DNA of 64,000 bases. Origin: Protaetiibacter larvae. Lineage in GTDB: Bacteria; Actinomycetota; Actinomycetes; Actinomycetales; Microbacteriaceae. The stretch is taken from contig NZ_CP043504.1 in the NCBI RefSeq assembly GCF_008365275.1, forward strand, positions 2,356,001-2,420,000, written 5' to 3'. The translations under genes were made by a program, and so were the position numbers. Below are positions 58,160 to 64,000 of the stretch, piece after piece; within the stretch, counting starts at the first letter, position 1, and each line of letters opens with the position of its first letter. The notes under the pieces were generated by a model, which saw nothing but the letters and a program-made list of their open reading frames with translations, did not search any database and was not told where the DNA came from.

Positions 58160-59428
58160 TCACCCCGTCTTCTCGTGAACGCGCACCCAACCGCCGCCGC
58201 GTTCGGCGACGGCCCCCTCGAGTGCCAGCACCCCGAGTTCGGCCCGCACCCGGTCGAGGGCGAGCCCCGAGAGCAGCGCGATCCGGTCGACGGATCGCGC
58301 GCTGCGGAGGGAGAGGGCGTCGAGCAGGCGGATGCGGGTGCCGCCCGGGTCGGCGGGCCGGCGCCGACCGGAGGCCTCCACCTGCTCGACGGCCGCTCCC
58401 TCCGCGTTCGCCGTCGCCGGCTCGACCTCGAGGGGCACGAGTTCGGCGACCTCGTCGGCGGTCGTCACGCAGACGGCGTCGTACTCGCGCAGCAGCCGGT
58501 GGCACCCCGCCGATGCGGAACTCGTCACGGGACCCGGCACCGCGCCGAGCGGTCGTCCGAGCGCCGCCGCATGCCCGGCCGTGTTGAGCGAGCCCGAGCG
58601 CGCCCCGGCCTCGACGACCACCGTCGCGATGCTGCTCGCCGCGATGAGCCGGTTGCGCATGAGGAAACGCCATTTCGTGGGTGCGACCCCGCAGGGCACT
58701 TCGGAGACGACCGCGCCGCTCGCCACGATCCGGGCGAGCAGCGCCTCATGCCCGGCCGGGTAGAAGCGGTCGAGGCCGCCCGCGAGGAAGGCGACGGTGG
58801 TGCCCCGGCTGGCGAGCGCGGCGCGGTGCGCGGCGCCGTCGATGCCGTAGGCGGCGCCCGACACGATCGCGTAGCCGCGATCCACGAGCCCGGCGGACAG
58901 CTCGACGGCGACGTGCTCCCCGTAGCCGGTCGCGGCGCGCGCACCGACGATGGCGATGGCCCGATCCAGCTCCCCGAGCGCCTCGCGGTTCCCCCGCGTC
59001 CACAGCGCATTCGGCGCGTGCGGTCCGAGGTCCGCGAGACCACGCGGCCACTCGGGGTCGCCGGGCACGATGAGGCTCGCGCCGAAGCGCGCCGCCTGCC
59101 GGAACGCGAGCAGGGCCGCCGCCTTCGAGATGCGCGGCGTCCAGCGGGCGACGGCCTCCGCGAGCTCGGTGTCGTCGACCTCGACACCCCGCTCGACGAT
59201 CGCGGCGCGCAGGAGGCCACCGGAATGATCGTCGATGAGGCGTGCGAGGGAGGTCTCGGCCCCGAGCGCCTCGATCACGGCCGTCGCGTGCCGGTCGCCC
59301 GGCTCGGCGATGCCGCTCCAGGTGCCGCGCGCGAACCGCTCCGCGACCGCATCGCGGTCGTGGTCCGGTGCCGTCACCGCACGAACGAGGGTCGCGACCG
59401 TCGAGGTCGCGATGCCGAGGATCGTCAT
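58160..59428 (-). CDS. dprA: DNA processing protein DprA
   Basis: This 422-residue protein has the Rossmann DprA core with LIVPGDPEWP, AIVGARAATGYGEHVA, YAIVSGAAYGIDGAAH and GPVTSSASAGCHRLLRE. A C-terminal winged-helix-like region follows. It loads RecA on incoming single-stranded DNA. ATG 59428 overlaps the comM stop (ATGA), so translation is coupled even though comM is interrupted. Confidence 0.94.
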   Translation of the reverse strand: MTILGIATSTVATLVRAVTAPDHDRDAVAERFARGTWSGIAEPGDRHATAVIEALGAETSLARLIDDHSGGLLRAAIVERGVEVDDTELAEAVARWTPRISKAAALLAFRQAARFGASLIVPGDPEWPRGLADLGPHAPNALWTRGNREALGELDRAIAIVGARAATGYGEHVAVELSAGLVDRGYAIVSGAAYGIDGAAHRAALASRGTTVAFLAGGLDRFYPAGHEALLARIVASGAVVSEVPCGVAPTKWRFLMRNRLIAASSIATVVVEAGARSGSLNTAGHAAALGRPLGAVPGPVTSSASAGCHRLLREYDAVCVTTADEVAELVPLEVEPATANAEGAAVEQVEASGRRRPADPGGTRIRLLDALSLRSARSVDRIALLSGLALDRVRAELGVLALEGAVAERGGGWVRVHEKTG

Positions 59429-60066
59429 ACCGCCGCCTTCCGCAGGTACAGAGCCCGACCGAGCTGGTCGAGGCCGGGTCGTTCGACCCCGTCGAGGTCG
59501 GCGAGGGTCCACGCGAGCCTCAGCACCCGGTCGTAGCCGCGCATCGTGAGGGCCCCGCGCTCGAGCGCCCGGTCGAGAGCGGAGGTCGATCCGGACGCGG
59601 GCGCGCCGTCCCGGCGAAGCCAGCCGCCGGGCGCGTGGGCGTTGAGTCGCCACGGCTGGTCCGCGAGCCGCCGCGCGGCGCGGTCCCGCGCCTCGACCAC
59701 CCGCGCCCGCGCCGCCGCGCTCGTCGTGACGGGCGCCTGGGTCGAGAGCCGCAACTGCGCGGCCGTGACCCGGGGGACGTCGAGCTGGATGTCGACGCGG
59801 TCGAGCAGGGGCCCCGACATCCGCCCGAGATACCGGCGGCGGGCGAAGGGGCTGCAACTGCACTCGGCGTCGCGCACGCCCGCATTGCCGCATGGGCACG
59901 GGTTCGCGGCGAGCACGAGCTGGAATCGGGCGGGGAAGCTCGCGGTGGCCGCCGCGCGGGAGATCGTGATGACCCCCGACTCGAGCGGTTGACGCAGCGC
60001 ATCCAGAGCGGACGGCGCGAACTCGGGTGCCTCACCGAGGAACACCAAAAAGCGCCTTTGCCTGTC
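59425..60066 (-). pseudogene. comM: comM (yifB) 3' fragment, interrupted by the mobile element
   Basis: The frame is the C-terminal ~210 residues of ComM, a Mg-chelatase-like AAA protein usually about 510 residues. It begins in the Walker B region: VFLGEAPEF stands where FLDEAPEF is normal, so the Asp is lost. The rest is normal: DALRQPLESG, LVLAANPCPCGN, LDRVDIQLDVP. Upstream the frame ends at a TGA at 60067-60069. The 5' part of the gene is absent from this side. The foreign element starts here, so insertion into comM is the natural reading. Confidence 0.85.
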
Positions 60067-60302
60067 TCAGGGCCGCGACGCTCTCGCGACGCTTCCGCGA
60101 CGCTGGTGCGACGCTGAGGCTATACTGAGCGTCGCGGCCAAAAGCCAATGATTACTTGCCCTCCGGGCTCGTTGCGACGCTGCGACGCTCCCATGGACAC
60201 CTTTGCAGTATGGACACCAGTTTTGGCTCCCACCAAGACGCCGGCCACCTCGGCCTGCTGATCCACCCCGTTGCGCATCTCCGCGCAGATCGGAACCCAT
60301 CA
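60046..60302. mobile_element. Left end of phage/satellite element with 8-bp repeat array
   Basis: The leftmost non-coding part of the foreign element lies just past the comM break. It contains GCGACGCT four times at 60075, 60086, 60097 and 60108 (11-bp period), an inverted copy at 60128-60135, and two more direct copies at 60174 and 60182. TATACT at 60121-60126 lies among them, and a less GC-rich stretch at 60136-60160 follows. The array may be an origin bound by the encoded replication ATPase, or operators of a promoter. Confidence 0.75.
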
Positions 60303-60799
60303 TGGCAACACCCCTGGAGCCCCGCCCCTACCTCGCCATCCACCTCGTGACCGTGGCGCCTGACGGCCTCCGCGACCTGCACGTGCGGGTCGCCACCCGT
60401 ACCTCTGGCGTCGTCGTCAAGCGTCTGAACGCTGGCGAGTCACACCAGCCCCTCCTCCCCTGGCTCGAGTCGGCTCAGCTGCAGCTGCCCCACTCGTTCC
60501 AGTCCTACCGGCTCGCCTGGGGCGTCGGTGCTGGCGAGCACGCCACCGCGCTCGTCTTCGGCCACGACCCTCTTGCCGACGGCGGCTCGTTCGATGATGA
60601 GCACGGCTACTCCGGTCCGGTCGGCGGCGTCCGCGATGACGTCCTCCTCGGCGCTGACTATGAGACCCTGTGGGGCTCGGACGGCGGCCCCGACTTCATC
60701 GACCACGCCGGCCAGCCTGTTCCCCGCGACCAGGTCAACCTCGTCGGCGTCTATCCGAACCTCCTGACCGCTGAGAACCGCGGGAAGGTGGTCAAGTGA
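60302..60799 (+). CDS. Element-encoded protein of unknown function
   Basis: This 165-residue protein begins MATPLEPRPYLAIHLVTVAPDGLRD. Its middle carries SYRLAWGVGAGEH and GHDPLADGGSFDDEHG, and its end NLLTAENRGKVVK. I do not recognise a family. It is the first gene after the repeat array and overlaps the replication ATPase gene by four bases (GTGA), so it is likely to be co-expressed and perhaps involved in replication. Confidence 0.7.
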   Translation: MATPLEPRPYLAIHLVTVAPDGLRDLHVRVATRTSGVVVKRLNAGESHQPLLPWLESAQLQLPHSFQSYRLAWGVGAGEHATALVFGHDPLADGGSFDDEHGYSGPVGGVRDDVLLGADYETLWGSDGGPDFIDHAGQPVPRDQVNLVGVYPNLLTAENRGKVVK

Positions 60800-62436
60800 G
60801 TGCCACGACCGACGCGCTGGACGCCTTGATCGCTGACTACGTCCTGATGGTGAACTCCGCGGGCGAGGGCTTCACGGTCCCGCGCGATCCCTCGGCTCCT
60901 CGGGTCGCGATGGCCGCCGACGCGCTCGTGAGCGACTTCCTCTACCGGCTCGATCGCGAGCACGGCATCGACGCCTACAGCCGCACGGACGCCGTTCGCT
61001 CGTGGCTCGACACCCGGCTCACGATCAGCACGGCGGGTCGCCTCCGCGTCCCGGTCGCCCTCCGCGCCCACCAGGTGGTGGATGACGACACCGGCGCTCC
61101 GCGTCTGCTCATCGACCTCGGGGACCCTGAGGTCGGGTTCTTCATCGACGTGCGCGCTGGTGGCTGGACCCTGTTCGACCCGCGGGTGCCCGGCGCCGAC
61201 GAGCGCTACCCGGTGGACGAGCGCCCGGTGTTCACGCGCCCCTCGACCGACTTCCGAGCCCTCCCGATCCCCCGCCGTGGCGAGGTCCGCGGCGAGGGGC
61301 GCGACTGGCTCCGTGGCGCGCTGAACCTGAGCGAGCGTGACTGGCGGCTCGTCTGGGGCTGGATGCTCACGGCCTACTTCTCGCAGTGGGACCGCCAGGG
61401 CCTCCTGTTCGTCGCGCCCACGAAGGTCGGCAAGACCCTCCGCGCCGGCATGGTCCTCCGCTTCATCCAGCCCTCGGACCCTCACGCCGACGGCATCGGG
61501 GCGGACTTCCCCGAGAGCCAGCGCGAGTGGGGCAGCCTGATCGCCGGCAACGCGGTCCTCGCGTTCGACGACGTGGAGCGGATCAGCGACAAGGCCCACG
61601 GCAACCTCAAGCGCATCGTCACGGGCGTCGCGTTCAAGACGCAGACCCTCTACAAGACGAGCGGCCTCACGGTCACCCGCGGCAAGCGCCCCCTTGTGCT
61701 CACCGCGTCGGGCACCCCGTCTGGGCTGCGCGACGACCTGCGCAACCGGCTCTGGCTGGTCGAGCCCACGGCCCCGCCTGTGGGCGACCGGCTGCGCTCG
61801 ACGTTCGAGCACATGGCCCCGGCGATCTTCGCGGACCTGCTGGACGACCTCGCTGACGCCCTGGCCCTCTACCTCCCCGCGGAGGGCGAGTTGGCTCGGC
61901 AGATCAGCGAGACCGGCGTGGGGGTCCGGCCCCTGGAGGTCACGGCCTTGTTCCGCGCGCTCGACCGCGCCCAGGGGCTCGACCCCTCGGCCGGCTTCGA
62001 GCAGGCTGCGCGTGACGCGCTCCAGGACTCGCTCATGGAGGCCGCGTCGGGCGATCGCTTCGCCTACACGGTGCGGGTGTTCCTCAGCGGCCACCCGGAC
62101 GGCGGCGTGCTGTCGAGCCAGGACCTCCTGGCTGGGCTGGCCGAGACCGCGCGCGAGCTCTTCCCTGACTCGCACCCCGAGCGCGAGGACTGGTTCCCGA
62201 AGGACGCGACTCGCATGGGCACGTTCTTCACGAAGAAGGCCGACAGCCTCAACGAAGCCGGCGTCTACCTCGCGAAGAGGATGCCCGACCGCAACACCCG
62301 CGGCTGGGCGTGGGAGCCGATCCCCGAGGACCTGCGCGTCTACGCGCCGACCGCGCCCGCGCCCGTCCGGCTGCCTGTTCGGACCTCGGACAGCGACCTC
62401 AGCGGCCCGGCCTTCCCCGACGAGCCCAAGGGCTAG
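60796..62436 (+). CDS. Replication ATPase / primase-helicase-like protein
   Basis: This 546-residue protein has an N-terminal region of about 190 residues and a central ATPase with Walker A LLFVAPTKVGKTLR, Walker B AVLAFDDVERI, and the segment GNLKRIVTGVAFKTQTLYKTSG with a following RGKRPLVLTASG, as in the primase-helicase ATPases of phages and satellites. The C-terminal helical region includes FPDSHPEREDWFP-like residues (LFPDSHPERED). It probably starts replication at the upstream repeats. GTG 60796 overlaps the preceding stop. Confidence 0.78.
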   Translation: MSATTDALDALIADYVLMVNSAGEGFTVPRDPSAPRVAMAADALVSDFLYRLDREHGIDAYSRTDAVRSWLDTRLTISTAGRLRVPVALRAHQVVDDDTGAPRLLIDLGDPEVGFFIDVRAGGWTLFDPRVPGADERYPVDERPVFTRPSTDFRALPIPRRGEVRGEGRDWLRGALNLSERDWRLVWGWMLTAYFSQWDRQGLLFVAPTKVGKTLRAGMVLRFIQPSDPHADGIGADFPESQREWGSLIAGNAVLAFDDVERISDKAHGNLKRIVTGVAFKTQTLYKTSGLTVTRGKRPLVLTASGTPSGLRDDLRNRLWLVEPTAPPVGDRLRSTFEHMAPAIFADLLDDLADALALYLPAEGELARQISETGVGVRPLEVTALFRALDRAQGLDPSAGFEQAARDALQDSLMEAASGDRFAYTVRVFLSGHPDGGVLSSQDLLAGLAETARELFPDSHPEREDWFPKDATRMGTFFTKKADSLNEAGVYLAKRMPDRNTRGWAWEPIPEDLRVYAPTAPAPVRLPVRTSDSDLSGPAFPDEPKG

Positions 62437-62621
62437 CCCCGCGCAACGTTTGCGCAACAGATGGTCCCGCGAGGCTCCCCGCGGCGCCGTCTGGCCCCGT
62501 AGTACCCGCCCCAGATGCGGTATATACCGGTGGGGAGAGAAAACGGCTCTCCCGCCTCACTGACGCCTCGGCCCTCGCTGGCCGGGGCGTTACTGTTTGC
62601 CTGCGCTACCTGAGGAGCCTC
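62437..62621. promoter_or_regulatory. Palindromic operator and hairpin before the late genes
   Basis: This non-coding stretch carries GCGCAA/TTGCGC (62441-62446 and 62450-62455), a perfect 12-bp palindrome CGGTATATACCG (62518-62529), and a hairpin GGGAGAG/CTCTCCC (62533-62539 with 62547-62553). The TATATA core is markedly AT-rich for this genome. The palindrome could bind a repressor or activator controlling the genes that follow; the hairpin may end transcription from upstream. Confidence 0.6.
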
Positions 62622-62885
62622 GTGCCTCGTCGCAACCGCCGCCGCCCCGCCGCCGATCCGGTCCAGTACACTCGCCTGCTCGCTGAACTCCGCGACGCCT
62701 GGGCCGTCCGCATGGGCGCGACCTGGCATGAGGTCCGCGCGGCCCGCCGGGCTGGCATCGAGCCCGGCACCCCTGCCTTCGGCAGGTTCCAGAGGGAGCA
62801 CCGGCGCACGCGCCAGGAGCGGGAGGCCTCGCGCCCCGTCTCGGTGGACGACGCTCGCTCCGTCCTCGCGGCGTACATCTCATGA
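62622..62885 (+). CDS. Small basic protein of unknown function
   Basis: This 87-residue protein starts at GTG 62622 with GAGGAG four bases before. It begins PRRNRRRPAADP and is rich in Arg; ELRDAWAVRMGATWHEVRAARRAG is a predicted helical region. It overlaps the HNH gene by four bases (ATGA). It may bind DNA, but no domain was recognised. Small terminase or regulator remain possible. Confidence 0.65.
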   Translation: MPRRNRRRPAADPVQYTRLLAELRDAWAVRMGATWHEVRAARRAGIEPGTPAFGRFQREHRRTRQEREASRPVSVDDARSVLAAYIS

Positions 62886-63253
62886 CAGCTGACTGGTGCC
62901 CCGTGGCGGGGTTCCCCGGCTACGAGGTCAACAGCCAGGGTCAAGTGCGCTCGCTCGATCGCATCGACAATCTGGGTCGCCCTCGCCGTGGGCGCTTGCT
63001 GAAGCCCCGGGACGCCAATCAGAAGGGCCACCTGTCTGTGGTGCTCTCACACGATGGGTTGCGCCAGACGGCTCGCGTCCATCGCCTCGTTGCTAGCGCG
63101 TTCATCCCGAACCCTCTGGGTTACCCGCTCGTCAGGCACCTCAACGGGAACCCCGCCGACAATCGCGCCGCCAACCTCGCTTGGGGTGACGTCGCGATGA
63201 ACTGGGCCGACGCGCGCCGACACGGGACGGCGCGCCGAGCCGCCGGCCATTAG
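62882..63253 (+). CDS. HNH endonuclease with NUMOD4 motif
   Basis: This 123-residue protein begins with WCPVAGFPGYEVNSQGQVRSL, the NUMOD4 motif, and has the HNH pattern VHRLVASAFIPNP and VRHLNGNPADNRAANLAW. HNH enzymes in phages and satellites take part in DNA packaging or are homing nucleases. It is directly upstream of the capsid gene (223 bases). Confidence 0.85.
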   Translation: MTADWCPVAGFPGYEVNSQGQVRSLDRIDNLGRPRRGRLLKPRDANQKGHLSVVLSHDGLRQTARVHRLVASAFIPNPLGYPLVRHLNGNPADNRAANLAWGDVAMNWADARRHGTARRAAGH

Positions 63254-63476
63254 ACCACCCGCGCCAGTCGCGGGTACATAGCGCTCGACCTCGGTCGGGT
63301 GCGCTCCGCCGCGTCCGCGGTGCCGAGGCCCAGGAGGGCAGAGCGCCGAGCACGGACACCGGTCGCTGCCAGCCAGTCCACCCGCAGGAGCGGGACCGGG
63401 CCGCTAGGCCGCAGTCGGGCAGGCACTTCCGGCGTCAGTCGACGCCACAAAGTGACCCTACCCATTGGAGTCAACC

Positions 63477-64000
63477 ATGGACACCAAGTCCACCCTTCGG
63501 GCGGAACTCTCCGCCCTCCAGATCAAGCTCTCCGCCGCGGTCGAGGCCGCGAAGTCGAGCGGTCGCGACCTCACTCCCAGCGAGGCGGATGCGATCGAGC
63601 GCGGCTCGGAGCGCGCGGTCGAAATCAAGGCCCAGCTGAACGCGATCGAGCGTGGCGAGAAGAACGCCGCTCTCATGGCGGGTGCGGGTGCCGGTGACTA
63701 CGGCTTCGACGCCGGCATCAACGGTCGCCAGCACGCTGAGCAGAGCCCGGCCGGCGCGAAGGGCTTCATCACCCCCGCGTCGATCAAGTCGATGACCTCG
63801 GCTGTCGCGGCTCGGGGCATCAAGGCGCTCGTCGCGGGTGGCTCGTCCACCACGGCGGTCGCTCTGGCAACCGACCCCATCCCGCTCGGTCAGCCGAACC
63901 TGGGCCTGCTCTCCCTCATCCCGACCAAGGTGCGGGAGACGCCCAACTACAAGTACCTGCGCCAGACGGTGCGGACCAACAACGCGGCCGTCGTGGCTGC
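63477..64000 (+). CDS. HK97-type major capsid protein, cut by window edge
   Basis: The 5' part (174 residues) begins MDTKSTLRAELSALQIKLSAAV with a helical delta-like scaffold region up to about residue 65. The capsid domain then begins with AGDYGFDAG, KGFITPASIKSM and STTAVALATDPIPL, and runs out of the window. TTGGAG is 7 bases before the ATG. No terminase, portal or protease gene lies between the HNH gene and this one. The chain's 3' end is missing. Confidence 0.82.
   Translation, partial: MDTKSTLRAELSALQIKLSAAVEAAKSSGRDLTPSEADAIERGSERAVEIKAQLNAIERGEKNAALMAGAGAGDYGFDAGINGRQHAEQSPAGAKGFITPASIKSMTSAVAARGIKALVAGGSSTTAVALATDPIPLGQPNLGLLSLIPTKVRETPNYKYLRQTVRTNNAAVVA

Follow-up and report, generated by a model that had tools for sequence, protein, structure and literature searches.

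What kind of element carries a gene for a major capsid protein (MCP) with neither a terminase nor a portal gene ahead of it? The question is raised by the right end of a 64,000-nt stretch of the Protaetiibacter larvae chromosome (contig NZ_CP043504.1; hereafter the window), i.e. genome positions 2356001-2420000 of a 2.56-Mb single-contig genome, where an original prediction made from the letters alone had placed a candidate phage satellite. The remainder of the element was read from the same genome; its locus is referred to as L002, and window coordinates equal L002 coordinates plus 57000. The inserted piece proved to be an integrated element of 8,821 bp lying within the host gene comM. Very probably, it is a helper-dependent phage satellite whose chimeric MCP enters the shell of its helper, as the Ccm protein of SaPIbov5 does.

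The element extends from window position 60034 to genome position 2424854, and the N-terminal half of comM, on the minus strand, picks up again at genome 2424855. The start given in the original prediction has to be moved from 60046 to 60034, inside comM. This gene was matched in all nine genomes of the genus; its frame is open across the site in seven of the nine, and in five of these seven the uninterrupted site itself was read by pattern. It is broken at an identical codon in the source genome (G000) and in G299 (locus L051). A dyad around the crossover is usual at serine integrase sites, and one was seen by eye here, TTCCTCG in the outer arm of attL pairing with CGAGGAA in that of attR; the crossover position is ambiguous by three shared bases. 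The G+C content of the inserted piece is 70.7%, compared with 71-73% in host DNA. From its left end, the element comprises the GCGACGCT iteron array, gp1, gp2, gp3, an HNH gene, the MCP gene, five small genes, a small gene in reverse orientation and a serine integrase gene, as listed below (aa, amino acids); the order proposed earlier as far as the capsid gene (repeat array, unknown gene, ATPase, small basic protein, HNH, MCP) was confirmed at these coordinates.

59425-60048, minus strand: C-terminal half of the interrupted host gene comM; host sequence ends at 60033
60031-60033, no strand: attL crossover triplet CTC (GAG read along comM), inside the comM codons for LFLDE/APEF
60034-64000, no strand: left part of the integrated element, flanked by the comM halves and continuing beyond the window to genome 2424854
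60075-60189, no strand: iteron-like array with seven copies of GCGACGCT, of which four have an 11-bp pitch, one is inverted and two are at 8 bp
60302-60799, plus strand: gp1, 165 aa, without a match in Pfam, PHROG or NCBIfam
60796-62436, plus strand: gp2, 546 aa, replication ATPase/helicase-like by similarity to replication proteins
62622-62885, plus strand: gp3, 87 aa, small basic protein without a family in Pfam, PHROG or NCBIfam
62882-63253, plus strand: HNH endonuclease of homing type with NUMOD4 (PF07463, E 1.8e-7; phrog_1492, E 3.3e-37; PADLOC homing endonuclease, E 5.5e-10)
63477-64000, plus strand: MCP, first 174 of 382 aa; the gene ends at genome 2420625, beyond the window
after the MCP gene: gpA, 122 aa
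after gpA: gpB, 101 aa, without a phage match
after gpB: gpC, 77 aa, with weak likeness to endonuclease VII
after gpC: gpD, 94 aa, with weak likeness to endonuclease VII
after gpD: gpE, 111 aa, matching phrog_21236 (E 1.9e-26)
after gpE, minus strand: gpF, 87 aa
after gpF, at the element end, minus strand: serine integrase, 508 aa (PF00239/PF07508/PF13408)

No portal, terminase, protease, connector, tail, holin or lysin gene was detected in the element by Pfam, PHROG, tblastn with the proteins of phage Eden or the portal model PF04860. As predicted, neither terminase nor portal precedes the capsid gene, and none was detected after it within the element either. A small integrated element with its own integrase at one end, and without detected genes for an infectious particle of its own, shows the general features of a phage satellite; reading past the window brought to light neither a full phage gene set nor a length above 30 kb, the two findings that had been named as grounds against a satellite.

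The call of a capsid gene was also right. The MCP is of the HK97 type (PF05065, E 2.3e-17; TIGR01554, E 2.8e-16), and a profile of 14 related MCPs aligned almost end to end with HK97 gp5, delta domain included (3qpr; E 3.1e-55). The delta domain takes up residues 1-116 and is followed by the HK97 coat. In HK97, maturation cleavage takes place at the end of the delta domain; by analogy with HK97 and with Ccm, the MCP is presumably cut after K116, and the lysine at this junction is aligned in 16/16 satellites and in 24 of 27 phages.

Searches with the MCP gave matches in 18 of 297 genomes of the order and 21 of 398 genomes of the family, two sets that overlap and both include the source genome. 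In all, the MCP searches led to 39 places, of which 25 (15 portal-less, 10 prophage) entered the trees and 14 were left out, i.e. weak or short matches (two in G279, and those in G196, G273, G020, G069, G160, G031, G482, G413 and G346), matches at contig starts in G646 (E 5.9e-19) and G411, and a scrap in G388. With the Eden proteins, tblastn separated the 25 loci into two sets: 10 prophage-like loci, of which all gave a portal, nine a terminase and eight a protease, and 15 loci in which all three went undetected. Likewise, in the 26 genomes searched with PF04860, which would miss more divergent portals, a portal started at most 3.4 kb from the MCP gene in 10/10 prophage loci, and no satellite-type locus (0/15) had one nearby; among the 15 satellite-type genomes the model had no match in 11 and matched elsewhere in four (G000, G008, G215 and G285). 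The terminase model PF03354 lay near the MCP gene in only 5/10 true prophages, and matched far from it in two satellite-type genomes, G008 and G077. Since this model is weak even in true prophages, the absence of terminase rests on the Eden tblastn (9/10 prophage loci, 0/15 satellite-type loci) together with gene sizes; the latter alone are weak evidence, because our home-made gene caller omitted the L039 terminase and portal from the large genes. In L030, L031, L032, L033, L034 and L074, a large gene besides those for MCP and integrase encodes a replication protein (AAA_25, Prim-Pol or DUF3987), and L033 additionally has a small terminase (PF05119, E 2.2e-14). The L034 and L078 elements lie near contig ends.

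Two loci have unusual neighbours. At L073:9750-13742, a portal-less capsid gene adjoins a gene for a 708-aa tape-measure protein (PF10145, E 3.6e-12), with no terminase or portal found. At L038 (G162), an MCP of the phage lineage lies beside a 1,174-aa gene in a genome without a PF04860 portal, which suggests a partial prophage or a divergent portal.

Phylogenetic analysis showed that nearly all the portal-less MCPs form one lineage, apart from the phage MCPs. In a tree of the 15 portal-less MCPs and 20 from phages or prophages, 14/15 of the former fell on one side of a branch (support 92/89); the exception was L038, with no portal found and a coat in the phage lineage, which was kept in the trees and excluded from the clade test. 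The tree was then enlarged by seven phages matching other satellite MCPs well and by two small-plasmid MCPs (Streptomyces pWTY27 and Rhodococcus), and 16/17 portal-less MCPs grouped together with one long-branch prophage, L085 (95/90); their strict grouping was not rejected (approximately unbiased test, p 0.36). None of 500 label shuffles, which ignore relatedness, clustered the portal-less label on the tree as tightly as observed. A satellite MCP also fetched 16 viral contigs, of which L135 was dropped as too short; in a quick tree all 15 remaining MCPs fell outside the satellite lineage, and a portal was found by tblastn in 13 of these 15 contigs. Viral contigs yielded no relative when searched with five queries: gp2, the integrase, and the MCPs of this element, of the sister and of L074.

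Both plasmids are of interest in themselves. The Streptomyces plasmid pWTY27 (L109, NC_013667.2) carries traA, traB and an MCP gene whose coat lies in the satellite lineage. The 13.6-kb Rhodococcus plasmid (L110, NZ_CP096036.1) resembles a head-to-tail dimer of a roughly 6.8-kb unit with MCP and integrase genes, one MCP being shorter; it may represent a satellite circle after excision, or else an artefact of assembly.

The nearest MCP relatives are those of Microcella alkalica (G645, locus L072; 58%) and Protaetiibacter mangrovi (G299, locus L051; 51-53%), whose elements follow the same plan, with gpC-gpF kept in both and gpB also in L072. The G299 element is about 8.9 kb long, and its integrase (64% identical) is seated in the same comM codon; that of L072 is 34.5% identical and the element is inserted at another site. 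In both sisters, gp2 is absent by tblastn, and a methylase/HNH pair (L051:8179-9391 and L072:7519-8767) fills a slot that is empty in the P. larvae element. The L051 pair matches type II restriction-modification models, and the corresponding L072 stretch is 81% identical to it in DNA.

Further afield, the elements at L072, L032, L075 and L044 are set, as judged by eye, among Flp/Tad pilus-like genes, which seems to be a recurrent insertion site. Inside comM (L031) and beside it (L030) lie MCP-bearing elements that belong to other families; their serine integrases are distantly related (25-26% identical). L044 (G043:C32) has a serine integrase (34%), a replication protein with Prim-Pol related to gp2 and a weak hit for a small terminase (PF05119, E 0.034), and nothing on its 12-kb contig matched the MCP.

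At the level of sequence, the MCPs of L002, L051 and L072 are chimeric, joining a satellite coat to a delta domain of phage type. Their first 60 or so residues are 63-69% identical to those of phage BAjuniper (Dismasvirus), 54-61% to those of Eden (Edenvirus) and 44-51% to those of CroZenni and Burritobowl (Dismasviruses) and Teagster (a Curtobacterium phage), and in a delta tree of 59 columns the three group with these five phages (99/99). Their coats are 29-34% identical to that of BAjuniper and belong to the satellite lineage. Over 946 pairs of 44 MCPs, mean identity is 0.30 for delta and 0.35 for coat. Delta exceeds coat by at least 0.15 in 21/256 pairs that join a satellite to a member of the Dismas and Eden phage lineage, 14 of these 21 coming from the three sisters and therefore not independent, and in 0/605 pairs of the five other lineage combinations (85 pairs with HK140 or L085 were left untallied); the other seven outlying pairs involve L030, L031, L034 and L079. 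In DNA, the MCP gene of the P. larvae element aligns with that of BAjuniper at nt 24-201 (68%) and shares one 15-base word with it, and a second patch at nt 835-911 (84%) is not relied on here, since it encodes a motif recurrent in phage coats; with the Eden gene it has five short stretches in common, of which those at nt 824-977 and 40-203 are the longest.

What looks like a second case comes from genomes of one genus, in which the L034 element and the L037 prophage share a delta identity of 0.46 and a coat identity of 0.21 (delta clade 97/97). As a tentative proposal, actinobacterial satellites may combine an old coat lineage with delta domains taken up repeatedly from local phages, which would serve as helper-specific adaptors; the three sisters with Dismas/Eden-type phages would be one case of such uptake, and L034 with L037 perhaps another.

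A further link to phages of this kind is gpE, which matches 187 phage records, 105 of them from Microbacterium phages. Among the best matches listed are Dismasvirus isolates such as FlameThrower (48.6% identity), where a single short gene separates the homologue from the DNA polymerase I gene ahead of it. Against two phage stretches, the other proteins of the element that were tested gave short matches at most (E 0.009 or worse). Judging from delta and gpE, the helper would be a siphophage of Dismasvirus/Edenvirus type.

For replication, gp2 gave no significant family match in Pfam, PHROG or NCBIfam, and is 27% identical over 366 aa to the post-Prim-Pol part of the L044 replication protein; its residues 104-332 are 30% identical to a protein of phage Zeta1847 annotated as primase or helicase (E 9e-13). 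The iteron-like array is likely a replication origin or control site. By counts alone, GCGACGCT occurs 14 times in the window, the same as in shuffles, but seven of the 14 are crowded into a 115-bp segment, where four are spaced at a pitch of 11 bp.

Taken together, these data are consistent with the following cycle. The serine integrase would seat the element in comM; once a siphophage of Dismasvirus/Edenvirus type infects the host, the element would excise and replicate from the iteron array by means of gp2. The MCP would be made with a scaffold (delta) domain matching that of the helper, by which it would enter the helper assembly pathway; the helper protease would then cut it after K116, and packaging and particle assembly would proceed via the helper's portal, terminase and tail. 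Either the MCP takes up part of the lattice like Ccm, which would yield small capsids and starve the helper, or a full MCP shell might be built on the helper's portal.

Several observations weigh against this interpretation. No helper, particle or excised circle of the element was seen. Neither a small terminase nor a cos site was recognised in the element; in a distant DNA search against phages, the best 15 of 100 records match in the MCP gene, and the match of gpA to a small terminase in PHROG was not significant (E 0.45). BAjuniper alone reaches the highest delta identities, the delta tree has few columns and the outlying pairs are largely those of the sisters. In the 398 family genomes, a delta-domain search gave, besides the three elements, four weak matches (37-43%, E 4.5e-4 or worse), so that the close match is to phage isolates and not to the prophages of relatives. 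The one resident prophage found (L105 and L106) covers some 16 kb between approximate ends at 407.7 and 423.7 kb of the genome, and has integrase, HNH, terminase, portal and tail genes, a fusion of protease and MCP, and an endolysin-like peptidase. It was rejected as helper: blastp found no meaningful similarity between its MCP and that of the element, and shared 13- to 16-mers are no commoner than with host DNA. The predicted structure of the Microcella MCP is poor (mean predicted local distance difference test score 57), with residues 1-40 or so and about 241-290 fairly confident. Finally, up to P180 the satellite MCPs have a median of 173 residues and the phage MCPs 191 (p 0.0003, inflated by related rows in a test that ignores relatedness), with no difference beyond P180 (p 0.26); this shortening of the N-terminal part runs in the same direction as in Ccm.

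Among the alternatives, the one that survives best is a variant of the satellite reading, in which the element builds a complete shell from its own capsid protein and the helper gives only portal, terminase, protease and tail. A full-length MCP with delta and coat regions and a coat lineage of its own fit such a shell, but a helper-like delta on a satellite coat is more expected if the two proteins mix, and we regard the variant as possible, if rather doubtful. Improbable is a defence-only island, whose MCP would poison the assembly of an infecting phage with no packaging gain for the element: Ccm expressed alone lowers the titre of phi12 10^3- to 10^4-fold (PMC8569155, PMC5052747), and the methylase/HNH pair of the sister element matches restriction-modification models, but the presence of integrase, replication ATPase and iterons argues for a life as a mobile element, and the relatives sit at different sites and in different genera. 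The oddity of a lone capsid gene, and a 45-aa MCP scrap of 71% identity in G388 (L080), might recall a decayed prophage that has lost its packaging and tail genes. Against such a remnant, for which we see very little room, none of the called reading frames is broken, L051 and L072 carry the same set of genes, and the MCPs have diversified as a lineage separate from that of phages with a portal.

The more specific suggestion of the original prediction, a capsid-forming phage-inducible chromosomal island (cfPICI), had to be given up. Such islands carry their own packaging set (portal, terminase and head-tail connectors) and borrow only tails. The element is compact and has integrase and capsid genes, but its MCP stands without a detected portal, terminase or connector gene, which makes this assignment barely credible. 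A complete HK97 siphophage prophage is dismissed, as no terminase, portal or protease gene was detected ahead of the MCP gene, nor any packaging, tail or lysis gene as far as the integrase and the other comM half.

Returning to the helper-dependent satellite with a chimeric MCP, satellites with capsid genes are already known, and elements combining integrase and MCP are described for Mycobacterium (PMC10654092). In the open-access literature we found no description of a portal-less capsid lineage across the sampled order, nor of a satellite MCP bearing a phage-matched delta on a satellite coat; both may be in print elsewhere. To our knowledge, the way in which satellites recognise a helper and enter its assembly line is known for few systems. 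Should delta prove to be an adaptor matched to the helper, sequence alone would allow the helper of an orphan satellite to be predicted; for the P. larvae element, the prediction would fall on phages of Dismasvirus/Edenvirus type, of which there are many isolates from Microbacterium. The presence of a capsid gene without portal and terminase would then also mark a satellite class that surveys for complete packaging modules could miss.

How, then, does the element compare with known systems? According to PMC8569155 and PMC5052747, Ccm of SaPIbov5 is an HK97-type capsid homologue with a delta domain, no protease was identified in SaPIbov5, and Ccm, which alone forms no capsids and is cleaved after K87, occupies the pentamers of the helper shell, turning prolate into small isometric heads. 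The P. larvae element resembles this kind of cos-type Staphylococcus aureus pathogenicity island (cos-SaPI) in being a satellite that has no detected protease and encodes an MCP homologue with a delta domain, which would likewise join the helper shell. It differs in hosts and genes; moreover, Ccm is 24% identical to the helper capsid protein, and here delta alone is 63-69% identical to one phage.

In PMC10654092, a region of phage type counts as a candidate phage-inducible chromosomal island of mycobacteria, a class that includes phiRv1/phiRv2, when it has both a machinery for integration and a gene for an MCP; some of these islands use serine integrases, and some carry replication genes. The P. 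larvae element likewise unites integrase and MCP genes in one phage-like region, unlike those members of that class that may include terminase and scaffold genes. The Streptomyces satellites MulchRoom and MiniFlayer are also capsid-bearing satellites of Actinomycetota; according to PMC10690885, they have terminase and portal and are without key replication genes, i.e. the reverse of the P. larvae element, which has a replication gene and no detected terminase or portal. With the cfPICIs (PMC11389934), it shares a capsid gene in a small integrated element; a packaging set was not detected in it. The P. larvae element is therefore nearer to SaPIbov5 with its Ccm and to the mycobacterial candidates than to the cfPICIs, because its capsid protein stands alone, without a packaging set.

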